From assembly GCA_012522795.1 (NCBI GenBank), contig JAAYJT010000053.1:1-47038 (forward strand): a stretch of 47,038 nucleotides of DNA, in the 5' to 3' direction. This DNA is from Bacteroidales bacterium. GTDB taxonomy: Bacteria > Bacteroidota > Bacteroidia > Bacteroidales > JAAYJT01. This document shows positions 2,583-47,038 of this stretch, in pieces. Made by a program: the position numbers and the translations under genes. Each line of letters opens with the position of its first letter. Positions within the stretch are counted from its first letter, which is position 1. Below the pieces are notes generated by a model. It saw only the letters and a program-made list of their open reading frames with translations. It ran no database searches and was not told where the DNA came from.

Positions 2583-2648
2583 AGTTAGTATATATTTAAG
2601 TGATTAAGTTAAATACACGAATTCATTATTTAGAATTATTTTAAACTG

Positions 2649-2656
2649 CAAAGTTA
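2649..2656 (-). promoter_or_regulatory. Candidate feoAB promoter (-7 element)
   Basis: The minus strand reads TAACTTTG, matching TAnnTTTG. Transcription would start near 2642, giving a leader of about 60 bases before the GTG start. No clear -33 element. Confidence 0.4.
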
Positions 2657-2706
2657 TTGGAATTTTGTAAATAGCAGGTATAATAATATTTGATTAATAT
2701 TTTTTT

Positions 2707-2714
2707 TACTTTTG
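2707..2714 (+). promoter_or_regulatory. Candidate promoter of the lipoprotein gene
   Basis: TACTTTTG matches the Bacteroidota -7 consensus 38 bases before the ATG at 2752. A TTTG at 2689-2692 lies closer than the usual 19-21 bp spacing, so the -33 part is doubtful. Confidence 0.45.
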
Positions 2715-2751
2715 AAAACAGAAATAATTATCAAAAAATACTGGTGGTGCT

Positions 2752-3921
2752 ATGAAAAAGGGTTACCTTATACTCCTTGTTGGCTTAATTGTAAGCGGTT
2801 GCATGAGTTCATCAAAGCTGATGCAATCAGGCAGATATGATGCTGCACTGGATAGAGCAGTTAAAGAACTGCGTAAGAATCCTGATAAAACAGAAGAAAT
2901 CCTTGCTCTTGAACGGGCTTATTCAATTTTGAACGAACGCACGATTGAGCGCATTAACTTCCTGATGCTTGATAATAATCCCCGCAATCTTGAGGAATTA
3001 ATAAACCTTTATTCAGAATTAAAGTACCGGCAATCGCTTGTACGAACTGTATTACCGTTGAATCTTCCTGACAGGGTTATTAATTACCCTTATGTTAACT
3101 ATGATACAGAAATCATAGAAGCTAAAAATTCTGCTGCAGGCTATTTTTATGATAATGCCATGAGGCTGATGCAACAAAAAACAAAAGAAGCCTACAGGCA
3201 GGCTCATTTGGAATTTAAAAAAGCAAAAACCTACAGCCAAAACTATCAGGATATTGACAAAATGATACAGAAATCAAAATATGATGGAATAAGCAGAGTA
3301 CTTATCATGGTTCATAATCACACTCCTATAAGGCTAAGTGATGATTTCTTGAATAACCTTCTAACTGTAAAACCAGAAGAACTGGATAGCGAATGGGTTG
3401 AGTATTATTTCAAAGACCTGGATGAATCTATTATGTTTGATTATTATATTGTAGTGAACCTTAGATCATTCGATATTTCGCCTGATAATACAAAGGATAG
3501 CGACAGACTTGTTAAAAAGCGTGTACAGGATGGTTATGAATATATGCTTGACGACAGAGGCAATGTGGCTAAAGATACAGCCGGAAATGATATTAAGGTT
3601 CCCCGATATGTTAATTTAACCTGTGCCATTATTGAAACTTTGCAACAAAAACATGCCTATATTGAAGGAGATGTTGAATTTGTGTCGCTCAATCCACAAA
3701 GAATACTAAAAAAAGAACCGGTAGGAGCTTCAAATAGTTTTGAACACAGATCAGCCAGAGCTATTGGTGACCTTGGAGCTCTTGACGAAGGAACACTTAA
3801 ATTAATTGATGCAAAGCAGCTTCCTTTTCCGGATGATGGCGAAATGGCAATACTTGCTACTGAAAGTTTAAGAATGGCAGTTGCACAGGTTATTCAAAAA
3901 AACAAAAGGCTTATCAAATAA
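2752..3921 (+). CDS. Predicted lipoprotein of unknown function
   Basis: 389 residues. The N-terminus MKKGYLILLVGLIVSGC is a lipoprotein signal peptide with the lipobox ending at Cys17, so the mature protein should be lipid-anchored on the periplasmic side or outer membrane. Residues 20-180 are rich in helical, TPR-like character (repeated A/L/Y positions, for example around 24-60 and 135-175). The C-terminal half contains a beta-rich segment around 285-320 (PRYVNLTCAIIETL). I do not recognise a characterised family; similar lipoproteins are frequent in Bacteroidota. It is monocistronic, with its own promoter match, and it converges on the T9SS gene through a shared terminator. Confidence 0.85.
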   Translation: MKKGYLILLVGLIVSGCMSSSKLMQSGRYDAALDRAVKELRKNPDKTEEILALERAYSILNERTIERINFLMLDNNPRNLEELINLYSELKYRQSLVRTVLPLNLPDRVINYPYVNYDTEIIEAKNSAAGYFYDNAMRLMQQKTKEAYRQAHLEFKKAKTYSQNYQDIDKMIQKSKYDGISRVLIMVHNHTPIRLSDDFLNNLLTVKPEELDSEWVEYYFKDLDESIMFDYYIVVNLRSFDISPDNTKDSDRLVKKRVQDGYEYMLDDRGNVAKDTAGNDIKVPRYVNLTCAIIETLQQKHAYIEGDVEFVSLNPQRILKKEPVGASNSFEHRSARAIGDLGALDEGTLKLIDAKQLPFPDDGEMAILATESLRMAVAQVIQKNKRLIK

Positions 3922-3993
3922 CCTTGCCTGAGCATCAACTTAAAAAACAATTATTATAATAGAGCAGGCAACAAAAAGGTATCAAAAAAAAAA

Positions 3994-7557: not shown

Positions 7558-9393
7558 ATGCCAGATATAATCAAATTACTTCCCGAATCAGTGGCTAATC
7601 AGATTGCTGCAGGCGAGGTCATTCAACGGCCTGCTTCAGCAGTTAAAGAGTTGCTTGAGAATTCTGTGGACGCCGGGGCTGCTGATATAAAATTGTTTAT
7701 TAAAGATTCAGGGCGGTCATTAATCCAGGTAAATGACAATGGTTGCGGAATGTCATTAACCGATGCCCGCCTGGCTTTCGAACGTCATGCAACATCGAAA
7801 ATCCGGGAAGCAAATGATCTTTTTGCTATTCGAACCCTTGGTTTCAGAGGCGAAGCTCTTGCCTCAATTGCTGCTATTGCACAAATTCAGATTAAAACAC
7901 GAAGACACGAAGATGAACTTGGAACTCTGATAGAGATTGAAGGATCTGATTTTAAACAGCAGTCGCCCTGCTCCTGCCCTGCCGGAACTTCAATTGCTAT
8001 AAAAAACCTATTTTTCAATGTTCCTGCACGTCGTAATTTCCTGAAATCAAACACAGTGGAATTCAGGCATATAATTGAAGAGTTTCAAAGAGTAGCATTG
8101 GTTTATCCCGAAATTAGCTTTTCATTATACAACGATGATCGCCCGATGTTTGTACTTCAGGCAACAAATCTGAAACAAAGGATTATAAACCTGATGGGAA
8201 ACCATTTTCTGAACCGGCTCATACCAATTGAAGAAAAAAATCCGGAAGCTAATATTATCGGATTTATAGGAAAGCCGGAGTTTGCAAAAAAAACACGTGG
8301 TGAACAATACTTTTTCGTGAACAAACGCTTTATTCGTAATGCCTATATGCACCACGCAGTTGGCAGCGCTTACAAAGAGCTTATTCCTGATGATTCTCAC
8401 CCTGTGTATTTCATATATCTGGATGTAAATCCCGAAAATATAGACGTAAACATTCATCCCACAAAAACTGAAGTTAATTTCAGATATAATCAGGTTATTT
8501 ATTCAATTCTGAAATCCTCGGTTAAAAAGGCTTTGGGAAAGTTCAGCCTCGAACCAACTCTTGATTTTGACAAAGAACAGGGAATTGAAATAACTCCTCT
8601 GCCACCAGGTTATATACCTAAACAGCCTGAAATAAAAGTTGATCCTGAATACAATCCTTTTAGCCAGCAGTCTGGTACAAGCCAGTTTCAGGTTAAAAAA
8701 CCGGTTGACGATTCCTGGAAAAGTCTTTTCTTACAAAAAACTGAAGAACAGGCTTCGTATATTTTGCAGAGAGACACTAAAGAGGTATATACGGATAGCA
8801 CTGAAAGCAATGAATTTACAACACCAGACAGTAATTTCCTTATCCAGTTGAACGCCCGTTACATAGTTGCCCCCGTAAAATCTGGATTAATGCTTATTGA
8901 TCAGTATCAGGCGCACCAGCGAATTTTATACGATAAGCTGCTTGAGAGACTGTCAACAAATAAAACCGGTTCACAAAAAAGCATGTTCCCTCAAACCGTT
9001 CATTTTAGTCCGGCAAATGCTGATATTGTAAAAGAAATACTTCCTCAGCTTAATTCTCTTGGGTTTGAAATTGAATCTCTGGGAATGAACACCTATGTTG
9101 TTAGTGCTATTCCGGGAGATTCAGAAAATGAAGATATAAATGAACTTTTAGAGAAGATAATTGATAATTATAAGAAGAATCTTATTGATCTAAAAAGCGA
9201 CAGAAATACTAATCTTGCAAGGTCAATGGCAAGGCAAATGGCAATAAAGCCGGGCAAAATTCTTGGCAGCGAAGAAATGATGGAAATTATCAACCAGTTA
9301 TTTGCAAGTAAAGCACCGGAAATATCTCCTGATGGCAGTCCTACCATTCGCATTATTACATTGAATGAGATCAATAAAAAATTCAGGGAATAA
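7558..9393 (+). CDS. mutL: DNA mismatch repair protein MutL
   Basis: 611 residues, a usual MutL length. MutL links mismatch recognition by MutS to downstream excision. The N-terminal GHKL ATPase is clear: ELLENSVDAGA with the catalytic Glu near residue 34, DNGCGM near 60 and FRGEAL near 97. The transducer domain follows, then a proline-rich linker (about 345-420) and the C-terminal dimerisation domain. The endonuclease motifs of the C-domain look degenerate: DQYQAHQR from residue 448 in place of DQHAxxER, and SPDGSPT at 590-596 in place of CPHGRPT. This implies a MutL without nicking activity, or one using different ligands. It is second in the operon, 12 bases before the first rhomboid. Confidence 0.97.
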   Translation: MPDIIKLLPESVANQIAAGEVIQRPASAVKELLENSVDAGAADIKLFIKDSGRSLIQVNDNGCGMSLTDARLAFERHATSKIREANDLFAIRTLGFRGEALASIAAIAQIQIKTRRHEDELGTLIEIEGSDFKQQSPCSCPAGTSIAIKNLFFNVPARRNFLKSNTVEFRHIIEEFQRVALVYPEISFSLYNDDRPMFVLQATNLKQRIINLMGNHFLNRLIPIEEKNPEANIIGFIGKPEFAKKTRGEQYFFVNKRFIRNAYMHHAVGSAYKELIPDDSHPVYFIYLDVNPENIDVNIHPTKTEVNFRYNQVIYSILKSSVKKALGKFSLEPTLDFDKEQGIEITPLPPGYIPKQPEIKVDPEYNPFSQQSGTSQFQVKKPVDDSWKSLFLQKTEEQASYILQRDTKEVYTDSTESNEFTTPDSNFLIQLNARYIVAPVKSGLMLIDQYQAHQRILYDKLLERLSTNKTGSQKSMFPQTVHFSPANADIVKEILPQLNSLGFEIESLGMNTYVVSAIPGDSENEDINELLEKIIDNYKKNLIDLKSDRNTNLARSMARQMAIKPGKILGSEEMMEIINQLFASKAPEISPDGSPTIRIITLNEINKKFRE

Positions 9394-9405
9394 AACAGAT
9401 TAAAT

Positions 9406-10266
9406 ATGAGTAATGGGTATTACAGACCAACGGGCTTTCAGGTATTGCCTCCGGTAGTAAAAAACCTGCTGATCATTAATGGTTTGGCTTTTTTAGCTAC
9501 AATGGCACTTCAAAGCTCTATGGGTATTGACCTTATTGATAAATTCGGATTAAGATACATGGGAGCCGAAAAGTTTGCCCCGTATCAGTTCATCACATAC
9601 ATGTTTTTACATGCAAACTTTGCTCATATTTTTTTCAATATGTTCGCTTTGTGGATGTTTGGTAATGCACTGGAAAATATATGGGGTCCCAAAAAATTCC
9701 TGATCTATTATCTGGTTACCGGTATAGGGGCAGCTATTGTACATTATATCACTATTTATCTGACCCTGAAACCGGATCTTACAATTATCAACAGGTTTCT
9801 TGCTGATCCTGGAATTGTGAACCTTAATGACCTTATTGCCAACCATCGTTTTATGATAAATCAGTCGTCAGGCGAGATATGGGAACATTTTAACGGATTT
9901 AAAAGGGATATGGCAATGTTAGATCATAATCCGGGTAATTATGATGCCTTGCAACGCAGTATTGAATTCATGTCAGAATATAAAACATATTTTCTGAACC
10001 TGCCAAATGTAGTCGGGGCTTCAGGTGCAGTTTTCGGGATACTCCTTGCTTTCGGAATGATATTTCCCAACTATATTATTTACATTTATTTTGCAATCCC
10101 TATAAAAGCCAAATGGTTTGTAATTTTATACGGCTTGCTTGAGCTTTATTTAGGATTTTCGCAATCGTCAAGCAATGTTGCTCATTTTGCCCATCTTGGC
10201 GGTATGATCTTTGGCTATTTCCTTATTATTTTATGGCGTTATAAAAATAAGCCCAATCCTTATTAA
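9406..10266 (+). CDS. Rhomboid family intramembrane serine protease (first of two)
   Basis: 286 residues with at least six predicted membrane segments. The catalytic serine lies in GASGAVFG (about residues 203-210), and the histidine in AHFAHLGG near the last helix. HANFAHIFFNMFALW, typical of the rhomboid HxxxN region, is also present. An insertion of about 80 polar residues (about 124-200, including RFLADPGIVNLND) splits the membrane core before the active-site helix. Rhomboids cleave transmembrane substrates within the membrane; the substrate here is unknown. It is 12 bases after mutL and 2 bases before the second rhomboid, so co-transcription and possibly translational coupling are expected. 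Confidence 0.93.
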   Translation: MSNGYYRPTGFQVLPPVVKNLLIINGLAFLATMALQSSMGIDLIDKFGLRYMGAEKFAPYQFITYMFLHANFAHIFFNMFALWMFGNALENIWGPKKFLIYYLVTGIGAAIVHYITIYLTLKPDLTIINRFLADPGIVNLNDLIANHRFMINQSSGEIWEHFNGFKRDMAMLDHNPGNYDALQRSIEFMSEYKTYFLNLPNVVGASGAVFGILLAFGMIFPNYIIYIYFAIPIKAKWFVILYGLLELYLGFSQSSSNVAHFAHLGGMIFGYFLIILWRYKNKPNPY

Positions 10267-10268
10267 AT

Positions 10269-11192
10269 ATGTATCAGCAAACCACTATTCTTGACCGCTT
10301 AAAAACCTTTTTTGGCAGCTTTTCTGCTTTACCAATGCTAATTTTGATAAATATTAGTATATGGTTGCTCATCAGGTTTTTAGGAGTTTTTGTATTCCTT
10401 TTTTCGAGTGGCGAAGGAAACACATTATATGTTTTAAATAACTTTGTTACACAATGGCTTGCTGTACCTGCCAACGTTGAAGTACTTCTTGCAAAACCAT
10501 GGACACTTGTAACTTACATGTTTCTCCACCTCGATTTCTTTCATATTTTGTTCAATATGTTATGGTTGTTCTGGTTCGGGCAGATATTCCTGCAATACCT
10601 TAATAGCCGCCAGTTGACATTTACATATTTTACCGGAGGATTGTCAGGTGCATTAATCTTTATTCTGTTTTATAATATTTTTCCTGTATTTAAGGCAGCT
10701 TTGCCTCAAGCGCTGGCATTAGGTGCGTCAGCATCGGTATTGGCAATTGTTGTTGCAATTTCTTTCTATGTTCCAAATTACACAATCCACCTTCTTTTAT
10801 TAGGTCCTATAAAACTCAAATATATCGCTATTTTCAGTGTTATTGCCGATTTCTTTATGATCCAGTCAGGGAATGCCGGAGGACATATTGCACATCTTGG
10901 AGGGGCATTATGGGGGTTCATTTTCATTTATGCTTTCAAAAAAGGATTTGACATGTCGAAATTCCTGAAATTTAATTTGTCAAAACCTGCTTTTCGGTTC
11001 AAAAGGAAGAAAAAATCGTCATTTAGAAATGTTTATGTAAATGAGCGTCCATTGACTGACGAAGAATATAATCTTAAGAAAATTGAGAATCAGAAGAAAA
11101 TTGACAGGATTCTTGAAAAAATTAAACGCTCAGGGTATGACAGCCTTAGCAAGGAGGAAAAGGATTTCCTTTTTTACAAAAGCCGCAGATGA
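10269..11192 (+). CDS. Rhomboid family intramembrane serine protease (second of two)
   Basis: 307 residues. The catalytic serine motif is GASAS rather than the usual GxSG, with the general-base histidine in GGHIAHLGG, so the dyad appears complete. HLDFFHILFNMLWLFWFG is the typical rhomboid HxxxxHxxxN region. After the last helix (about residue 220) comes a soluble basic tail rich in Lys, ending in a short conserved domain (RPLTDEEYNLKKIE through the C-terminus) resembling DUF6576 found on Bacteroidota rhomboids. Its polar N-terminus and separate tail make it clearly different from the first rhomboid, so this is not a recent duplication. Confidence 0.92.
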   Translation: MYQQTTILDRLKTFFGSFSALPMLILINISIWLLIRFLGVFVFLFSSGEGNTLYVLNNFVTQWLAVPANVEVLLAKPWTLVTYMFLHLDFFHILFNMLWLFWFGQIFLQYLNSRQLTFTYFTGGLSGALIFILFYNIFPVFKAALPQALALGASASVLAIVVAISFYVPNYTIHLLLLGPIKLKYIAIFSVIADFFMIQSGNAGGHIAHLGGALWGFIFIYAFKKGFDMSKFLKFNLSKPAFRFKRKKKSSFRNVYVNERPLTDEEYNLKKIENQKKIDRILEKIKRSGYDSLSKEEKDFLFYKSRR

Positions 11193-45893: not shown

Positions 45894-46586
45894 ATGAACC
45901 AGAAACCATCCAACATAAAAAAGCTAGAAGTAGCTTGTTTCAACTTTCAATCGGCATTGAATGCAATAGCTGCAGGAGCCAGTCGTATTGAATTATGCTC
46001 TGATTATAAATCCGGCGGCATATCACCTGATCTAGAGGAACTCACAATTCTTAAAGAAATATCATCTGTTCCTGTTTATGTTATGATAAGACCCAGGAGA
46101 GGCGATTTCATTTATTCTTCTGCTGAAATTAAAAAGATGCAGGAATTGATAAAAATATTTACTGATTGTCGCTCTGATGGTTTTGTGTTCGGGATACTGA
46201 CACCGGATGGTAAGGTTGACATTGAAGCCAATTCAAAGCTTATTATTGAGGCAGGCAAACTACCCTGTACTTTTCACCGTGCTTTTGATCATACTGCTGA
46301 ACCTTTTGATGCACTTGAAGATATTATTCAAATGGGTTTCAAGAATATACTTTCTTCCGGAAGACAAAAAACAGCCTTGCTGGGTGCTGACTTTCTGAGT
46401 GAATTGAAGAAAAGGGCAAAAAACAAAATCTCATTTATCGCTGGCGGAGGAGTACGTTCAAAAAATATAGACATACTGGTTCAAAAGTTTGAAACTGAAT
46501 TTTATCATACATCGGCAATAACCGGAAATAAAATAATTGCCAATATGGAGGAAATTAAAAAGATACTTGCAATTATAAATCCATAA
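45894..46586 (+). CDS. cutC: CutC family protein
   Basis: 230 residues forming a TIM-barrel family protein. LEVACFNFQSALNAIAAGAS, RIELCSDYKSGGISP, VMIRPRRGDFIYS, FHRAFD and SGRQKTALLG are CutC signatures. CutC was first linked to copper tolerance in E. coli, but copper binding or transport by the family is poorly established and the enzyme activity is unknown. It lies about 97 bases after rnfA, with no recognised promoter, and the CRISPR array starts 35 bases after its stop. Confidence 0.93.
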   Translation: MNQKPSNIKKLEVACFNFQSALNAIAAGASRIELCSDYKSGGISPDLEELTILKEISSVPVYVMIRPRRGDFIYSSAEIKKMQELIKIFTDCRSDGFVFGILTPDGKVDIEANSKLIIEAGKLPCTFHRAFDHTAEPFDALEDIIQMGFKNILSSGRQKTALLGADFLSELKKRAKNKISFIAGGGVRSKNIDILVQKFETEFYHTSAITGNKIIANMEEIKKILAIINP

Positions 46587-46620: not shown

Positions 46621-46848
46621 ATTTCAATTCCATTATGGTACGATTAAAAGCATATTTAATGAAGTAGTATCAATATCATCTACTCCGTTTCAATTCCATT
46701 ATGGTACGATTAAAAGTAATATTGATGAGGATGGAGGAGCAGATAATTGAATAGTTTCAATTCCATTATGGTACGATTAAAAGAGAATAACGGCGCTCAT
46801 AAAACGTAACAAAGAGATATTTCAATTCCATTATGGTACGATTAAAAG
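46621..46848. CRISPR. CRISPR array, four repeats and three complete spacers
   Basis: Repeats at 46621-46650, 46687-46716, 46754-46783 and 46819-46848 (30 bp) begin G/ATTTCAATTCC and end GATTAAAAG. They are identical except for base 1 (A in copies 1 and 4, G in 2 and 3). Spacers are 36, 37 and 35 bp (46651-46686, 46717-46753, 46784-46818). The reverse complement ends ATTGAAAC or ATTGAAAT, the usual crRNA 5' handle of type I-B and III arrays, so transcription is probably on the minus strand, from right to left. The leader should then lie to the right, but the array is followed by phage-like sequence. No cas genes are in the window. Confidence 0.95.
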
Positions 46849-47038
46849 CCGCTGCCGAACCACGCAACGATCATCAGAGATTGTACGGAGTTGTGAAGCC
46901 GGTGGATGACCCCTTCTGGGACACCTGGCTGCCGCCAAGTGACTGGGGCTGCCGCTGCAGCGTAAAGCAGGTAAGAGATGATGACAATGCCAAAGAAGTA
47001 CCCAAAGACATTAAACTGCCACCAGCATACATGAGGCA
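46849..47038 (+). CDS. Partial phage head morphogenesis (Mu gpF-like) protein
   Basis: Right after the fourth repeat an open frame (codons from 46851) runs to the window edge. It reads AEPRNDHQRLYGVVKPVDD, then PFWDTWLPPSDWGCRCSVKQ and further. The pattern R..HxxLxGxVxPxDDPFWDTxxPPxxWxCRC is the typical C-terminal part of phage minor head proteins of the Mu gpF/SPP1 gp7 type, which assist prohead assembly. The stretch is richer in G and C than its surroundings. No start or stop is visible, and the true 5' part of the gene is missing, being replaced by the CRISPR repeat. It may be a chimeric join rather than a real neighbour. Confidence 0.75.

Follow-up and report, generated by a model that had tools for sequence, protein, structure and literature searches.

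A CRISPR array that continues into a phage minor head protein gene at a contig end: most likely an assembly chimera formed through a spacer

At the right end of a contig from a Bacteroidales bacterium, the last visible repeat of a CRISPR array is followed directly by coding sequence of phage type. The question is whether this join exists in the cell or arose during assembly. The window, i.e. the whole stretch of DNA that was analysed, is the entire contig C24 (47,038 nucleotides), and its edge is the contig end. The genome amounts to 2.88 Mb in 100 contigs, with a completeness of 97.01. The features of the region are the following.

45894..46586, + strand: cutC-family gene (Pfam CutC, 7e-58, 195.9 bits, cut-off 23.3)
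46622..46848, - strand (inferred transcription direction): trailer-side part of a CRISPR array, four repeats and three spacers
46849..46884, no strand given: putative spacer 4 (expected length 35-37 bases), directly after repeat 4, right boundary not visible
46885..47038, + strand: phage DNA, middle of a Mu gpF-like minor head protein gene (Pfam, PHROG and a profile of relatives)

The array consists of four identical 29-base repeats (46622-46650, 46688-46716, 46755-46783 and 46820-46848), separated by three complete spacers of 36, 37 and 35 bases. Direct repeats with unique spacers of similar length are likewise found on a second contig of the genome, C35, with two repeats and a 36-base spacer. 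Repeat 4 ends at 46848 and, as an earlier note on this DNA had stated, no fifth repeat follows; the remaining 190 bases to the contig end are free of repeats. The base preceding the repeat is A at 46621 (repeat 1) and 46819 (repeat 4); the two middle repeats and the two on C35 have G there. The cutC-family gene is the final gene ahead of the array, at its trailer end; its match to NCBIfam PRK11572.1 (6.7e-50) stays under the model cut-off.

The 190 bases past repeat 4 encode 63 residues of a minor head protein of Mu gpF type. The fragment matches Pfam Phage_Mu_F (PF04233) at 2.5e-8 over profile positions 77-111 of 112, as well as PHROG 220 (minor head protein) at 3e-16, and putative spacer 4 together with the tail aligns to residues 159-222 of a 359-residue relative encoded on viral contig L014. 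The same note had read this stretch, from its letters, as an uninterrupted frame of higher G+C with a Mu gpF-like motif, already open where a spacer is expected, and each element of that description holds. The open frame extends over 46833-47036, the motif is real (35.1 bits over a Pfam cut-off of 29.6), and homology covers the first ∼36 bases. The G+C content is 0.547 versus 0.372 for window positions 1-46600, a value reached by none of the 4666 stretches of 190 bases (step 10) that precede 46848. A chance reading frame is rejected on the agreement of Pfam, PHROG and the purpose-built profile.

The position at which phage homology starts was read from DNA comparisons with relatives. For 13 of the 30 viral loci encoding a relative, ungapped identity to the window was determined before the boundary, in the spacer part and in the rest. 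In L011-L014, identity is 28% over the 61 bases ahead of the boundary, 69-72% over the 36 bases that follow and 66-71% over the remainder; the left flanks of these four loci differ from that of the fragment. L015-L018 show 21-34% before, 53-75% in the spacer part and 53-62% in the rest. In the five most distant loci (L019, L022, L026, L028 and L031), the values are 16-28, 36-47 and 48-52%, the spacer part being less identical than the rest, and the boundary therefore rests on the nearer relatives. Across eight relatives (L057, a contig of a Bacteroidales genome, plus seven viral loci; L012 was dropped as its segment repeats that of L011), the mean DNA identity of 10-base bins lies at 0.14-0.38 as far as 46847 and at 0.57-0.86 from 46848 onwards. 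The step itself goes from 0.14 (46838-46847) to 0.57 and 0.81 in successive bins. A profile of nine relatives aligns from codon 46848-46850, which straddles the repeat end. By these alignments, homology begins at the edge between repeat and spacer and is unbroken through the length of a spacer and beyond. In the nine relatives, whose frames have 333-577 codons, the match begins between residues 176 and 240, and in the L014 protein it begins at residue 159 of 359. The match thus starts within the relatives' frames, and the phage DNA begins mid-gene, where a phage end is not expected.

Of 42 candidate stretches in viral contigs, 30 code for a relative of the fragment, with 44-77% identity over the best segment. 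In a genome collection, 6 of 62 candidates do so (44-62% identity); these records belong to Bacteroidales, Chitinophagales, another Bacteroidetes, a Spirochaetes and, in two cases, Sphingomonas. All 180 matching records of named phages stay below 60% identity, the best among the matches listed reaching 51-53%. With 77% protein identity as the overall best, on a viral contig, and every named phage below 60%, no close phage was therefore found. On L014, a terminase gene and a portal gene of Mu type (PF06074, 255.7 bits) precede the gpF gene; the relatives therefore represent real phage head-gene clusters. On L057, two neighbouring genes (1422-2549 and 2630-3934) both exceed the Phage_Mu_F cut-off. 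An exact 22-mer of putative spacer 4 and an exact 21-mer farther along the tail each gave 0 matches in the viral contigs, and a DNA search of the 190 bases against named phages gave none. The expectation that the junction would directly identify the phage against which the host is immunised is consequently not borne out: the nearest relative has 77% protein identity and an exact copy is absent from the viral contigs searched. As for the other spacers, spacer 1 has only weak matches in named phages (four records, best E 0.4), spacer 2, spacer 3 and that of C35 have none at E 0.1, and the five spacers and the repeat-4 junction have no match at E 0.1 in 36 phage-related loci. The array yielded no second protospacer. 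Compared with known Mu F-like minor head proteins (PF04233; PHROG 220), the fragment passes the Pfam cut-off and has up to 77% identity to viral-contig proteins; it differs in that only 63 residues are present, probably fused to a CRISPR repeat by assembly, and in that no named phage reaches 60%.

The other side of the array lies on C35. With up to three mismatches allowed, the repeat was found six times in the genome, four times at the end of C24 and twice on C35 (2-30 and 68-96), always on the + strand and in the order expected for one array. C35 opens with a repeat, a 36-base spacer and a repeat, with no phage sequence ahead. Next comes a leader-like stretch (L003:97-180) that starts with CCGT and has TCGTC at offset 77. 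In the arrays of three related genomes (G028, G033 and G049), CCGT likewise opens the stretch past the last repeat and TCGTC lies at offsets 77, 77 and 75, and the C35 stretch is therefore marked as leader. CCGT with TCGTC at offset 75-77 is common to the leaders of four genomes (L003, L065, L067 and L068) and is a possible conserved leader signal. Putative spacer 4 starts with CCG, like the leader; this is taken as chance because the spacer is phage-homologous coding sequence.

Past the leader, the minus strand of C35 encodes cas2, cas1, cas4, cas7b, cas8b, cas3b, cas5b and two cas6b genes, for which the best PADLOC models all belong to subtype I-B. Leader and cas genes thus lie together at one end of an array, as in type I-B, and all genes of that system (Cas8b, Cas7b, Cas5b, Cas3b, Cas6b and Cas4-Cas1-Cas2) are present beside the leader end. 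The locus departs from the known type in the split of its array across two contigs and in its two cas6 genes with an HTH/WYL regulator between them. These two genes are different (L003:8300-8959 and 10043-10834), and the regulator gene between them lies at 9075-9998. A 221-residue frame between cas4 and cas7 has no match to a Pfam family. C24 and C35 share the repeat and have matching orientation, no other such array was found in the genome and nothing bridges the gap; from these features, they look like two ends of one array. Two genomes of the same genus were compared; the repeat is absent from both, as is the phage gene, and without the repeat they could not bridge C24 and C35.

The genome was also examined for other parts of the phage. 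Searches of it with the gpF family and with a full gpF relative returned this fragment alone, and the portal protein of L014 gave 0 matches. As a control, the same portal query found its counterpart in three of three control records, down to 30% identity. The Mu portal family PF06074, to which the L014 protein belongs by match, gave nothing in the genome and likewise no match in any of 14 control genomes. As far as portal and gpF genes go, these searches indicate that the binned genome shows no such prophage.

How contigs end in arrays of this repeat type was compared across eight cases: C24, C35 and six ends in G028, G033 and G056. Only the C24 end runs on into non-array sequence. The other seven (the C35 start, the G028 C152 end and C89 start, both ends of G033 C64, the G033 C70 start and the G056 C62 end) stop 1-63 bases from the nearest full repeat; they are an incidental, unplanned sample and may derive from other assemblers. 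The opening 127 bases of C24 match the final 127 of C48 exactly in reverse complement, an overlap that suggests a final k of 127. An identity of 36 bases cannot join two paths at that k, and a crossing there would therefore stem from a smaller-k round or from end extension. Common assemblers carry contigs from smaller k forward. At the left end of the window, 121-130 bases of positions 1-130 recur at 98-100% identity at no fewer than 14 further places on 13 other contigs (40 of 68 candidates scored), at least nine of these copies lying within 5 bases of a contig end; this left end probably marks the border of a high-copy element at which the assembly breaks. CRISPR arrays can yield chimeric contigs in short-read assembly (PMC6617893). 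That paper attributes such chimeras to the repeat; in the present case, the paths would cross at the identity between spacer and protospacer. A jump of this latter kind was not found described in a narrow literature search, which does not imply that it is unpublished.

The best explanation, to which we assign a probability of about 0.85, is that the C24 end is an assembly chimera in which the array was left through a spacer identical to phage DNA. A single type I-B array would be split, with its trailer side at the C24 end and its leader side at the C35 start near cas2. Spacer 4, as a true spacer with an exact protospacer, would derive from a tailed phage that has a Mu gpF-type gene, namely from its minor head protein gene, and the sample probably contained this phage or one very close to it. 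With such a phage present, array and phage would share ∼36 bases; on the alignments, spacer 4 is taken to be identical to the phage DNA and to be the point where the two paths meet. The assembler, stuck in the array, would exit via the shared stretch, proceed ∼154 bases into the phage gene and stop. The phage tail would then be a side path at the gap between C24 and C35, and the join would be absent from real molecules. An assembly jump of this sort was the reading favoured in the earlier note, and it gains support from the leader side on C35 and from homology that starts mid-gene at the repeat edge.

A junction that is real in some cells would mean that a phage or mobile element entered or recombined via the spacer and separated or replaced the leader side. 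In its favour, the contig runs on without a break, and the deduced final k of 127 would normally call for real reads across the join; even so, this reading is very unlikely in view of a leader side that sits on C35 with the same repeat, opening with a repeat and free of phage sequence ahead of it, of searches of the genome that returned no portal gene and no further part of gpF, and of a breakpoint that falls mid-gene rather than at a phage end. Replacement of the leader side had been the second proposal of the note. The leader side was most likely not replaced, because the only other repeats found open C35 and are followed by the leader-like stretch and the type I-B cas operon. The signs of a prophage or mobile element within the array were not found: the junction is mid-gene, searches returned no portal gene and no other gpF, and C35 opens with a repeat. 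Both prophage insertion and replacement of the leader are rejected, as the C35 side is present and the junction lies within a gene.

That phage DNA of 190 bases or more was truly integrated between repeats, as an overlong spacer, would agree with a start at the repeat edge and with a contig that stops before any next repeat is visible. Spacers much longer than usual are very unusual, the adjacent complete spacers have 35-37 bases and that of C35 has 36; this possibility is highly improbable and, given its neighbours, an overlong spacer is rejected. Contig ends often host chance chimeric joins, and a library ligation or scaffolding error unrelated to the spacer could on that general ground be placed here. 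Such an accident would need to strike the edge of repeat and spacer within ∼1 base (a rough estimate of 1 in 30 to 1 in 66, for a 66-base unit) and would also have to pick the phage gene by accident, which makes it very unlikely. It is quite unlikely that some of the population truly carries the junction, whether through phage recombination at the shared spacer or through an overlong phage insert taken up as a spacer; if true, it would show a CRISPR array broken by recombination between spacer and protospacer, which is rarely seen. Most likely, the junction is not a real feature.

The preferred reading, a chimera formed through spacer 4, leaves the join itself most likely empty as biology, but useful as a clue. 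Tails of this kind should be trimmed before prophage genes are called. Array contigs that exit a spacer into phage DNA could also be sought deliberately as a source of host-phage links. For this Bacteroidales bacterium, the join suggests that the host has been immunised against a phage carrying a Mu gpF-type head gene and that the sample probably contained this phage; the immunisation hinted at is ordinary CRISPR biology.
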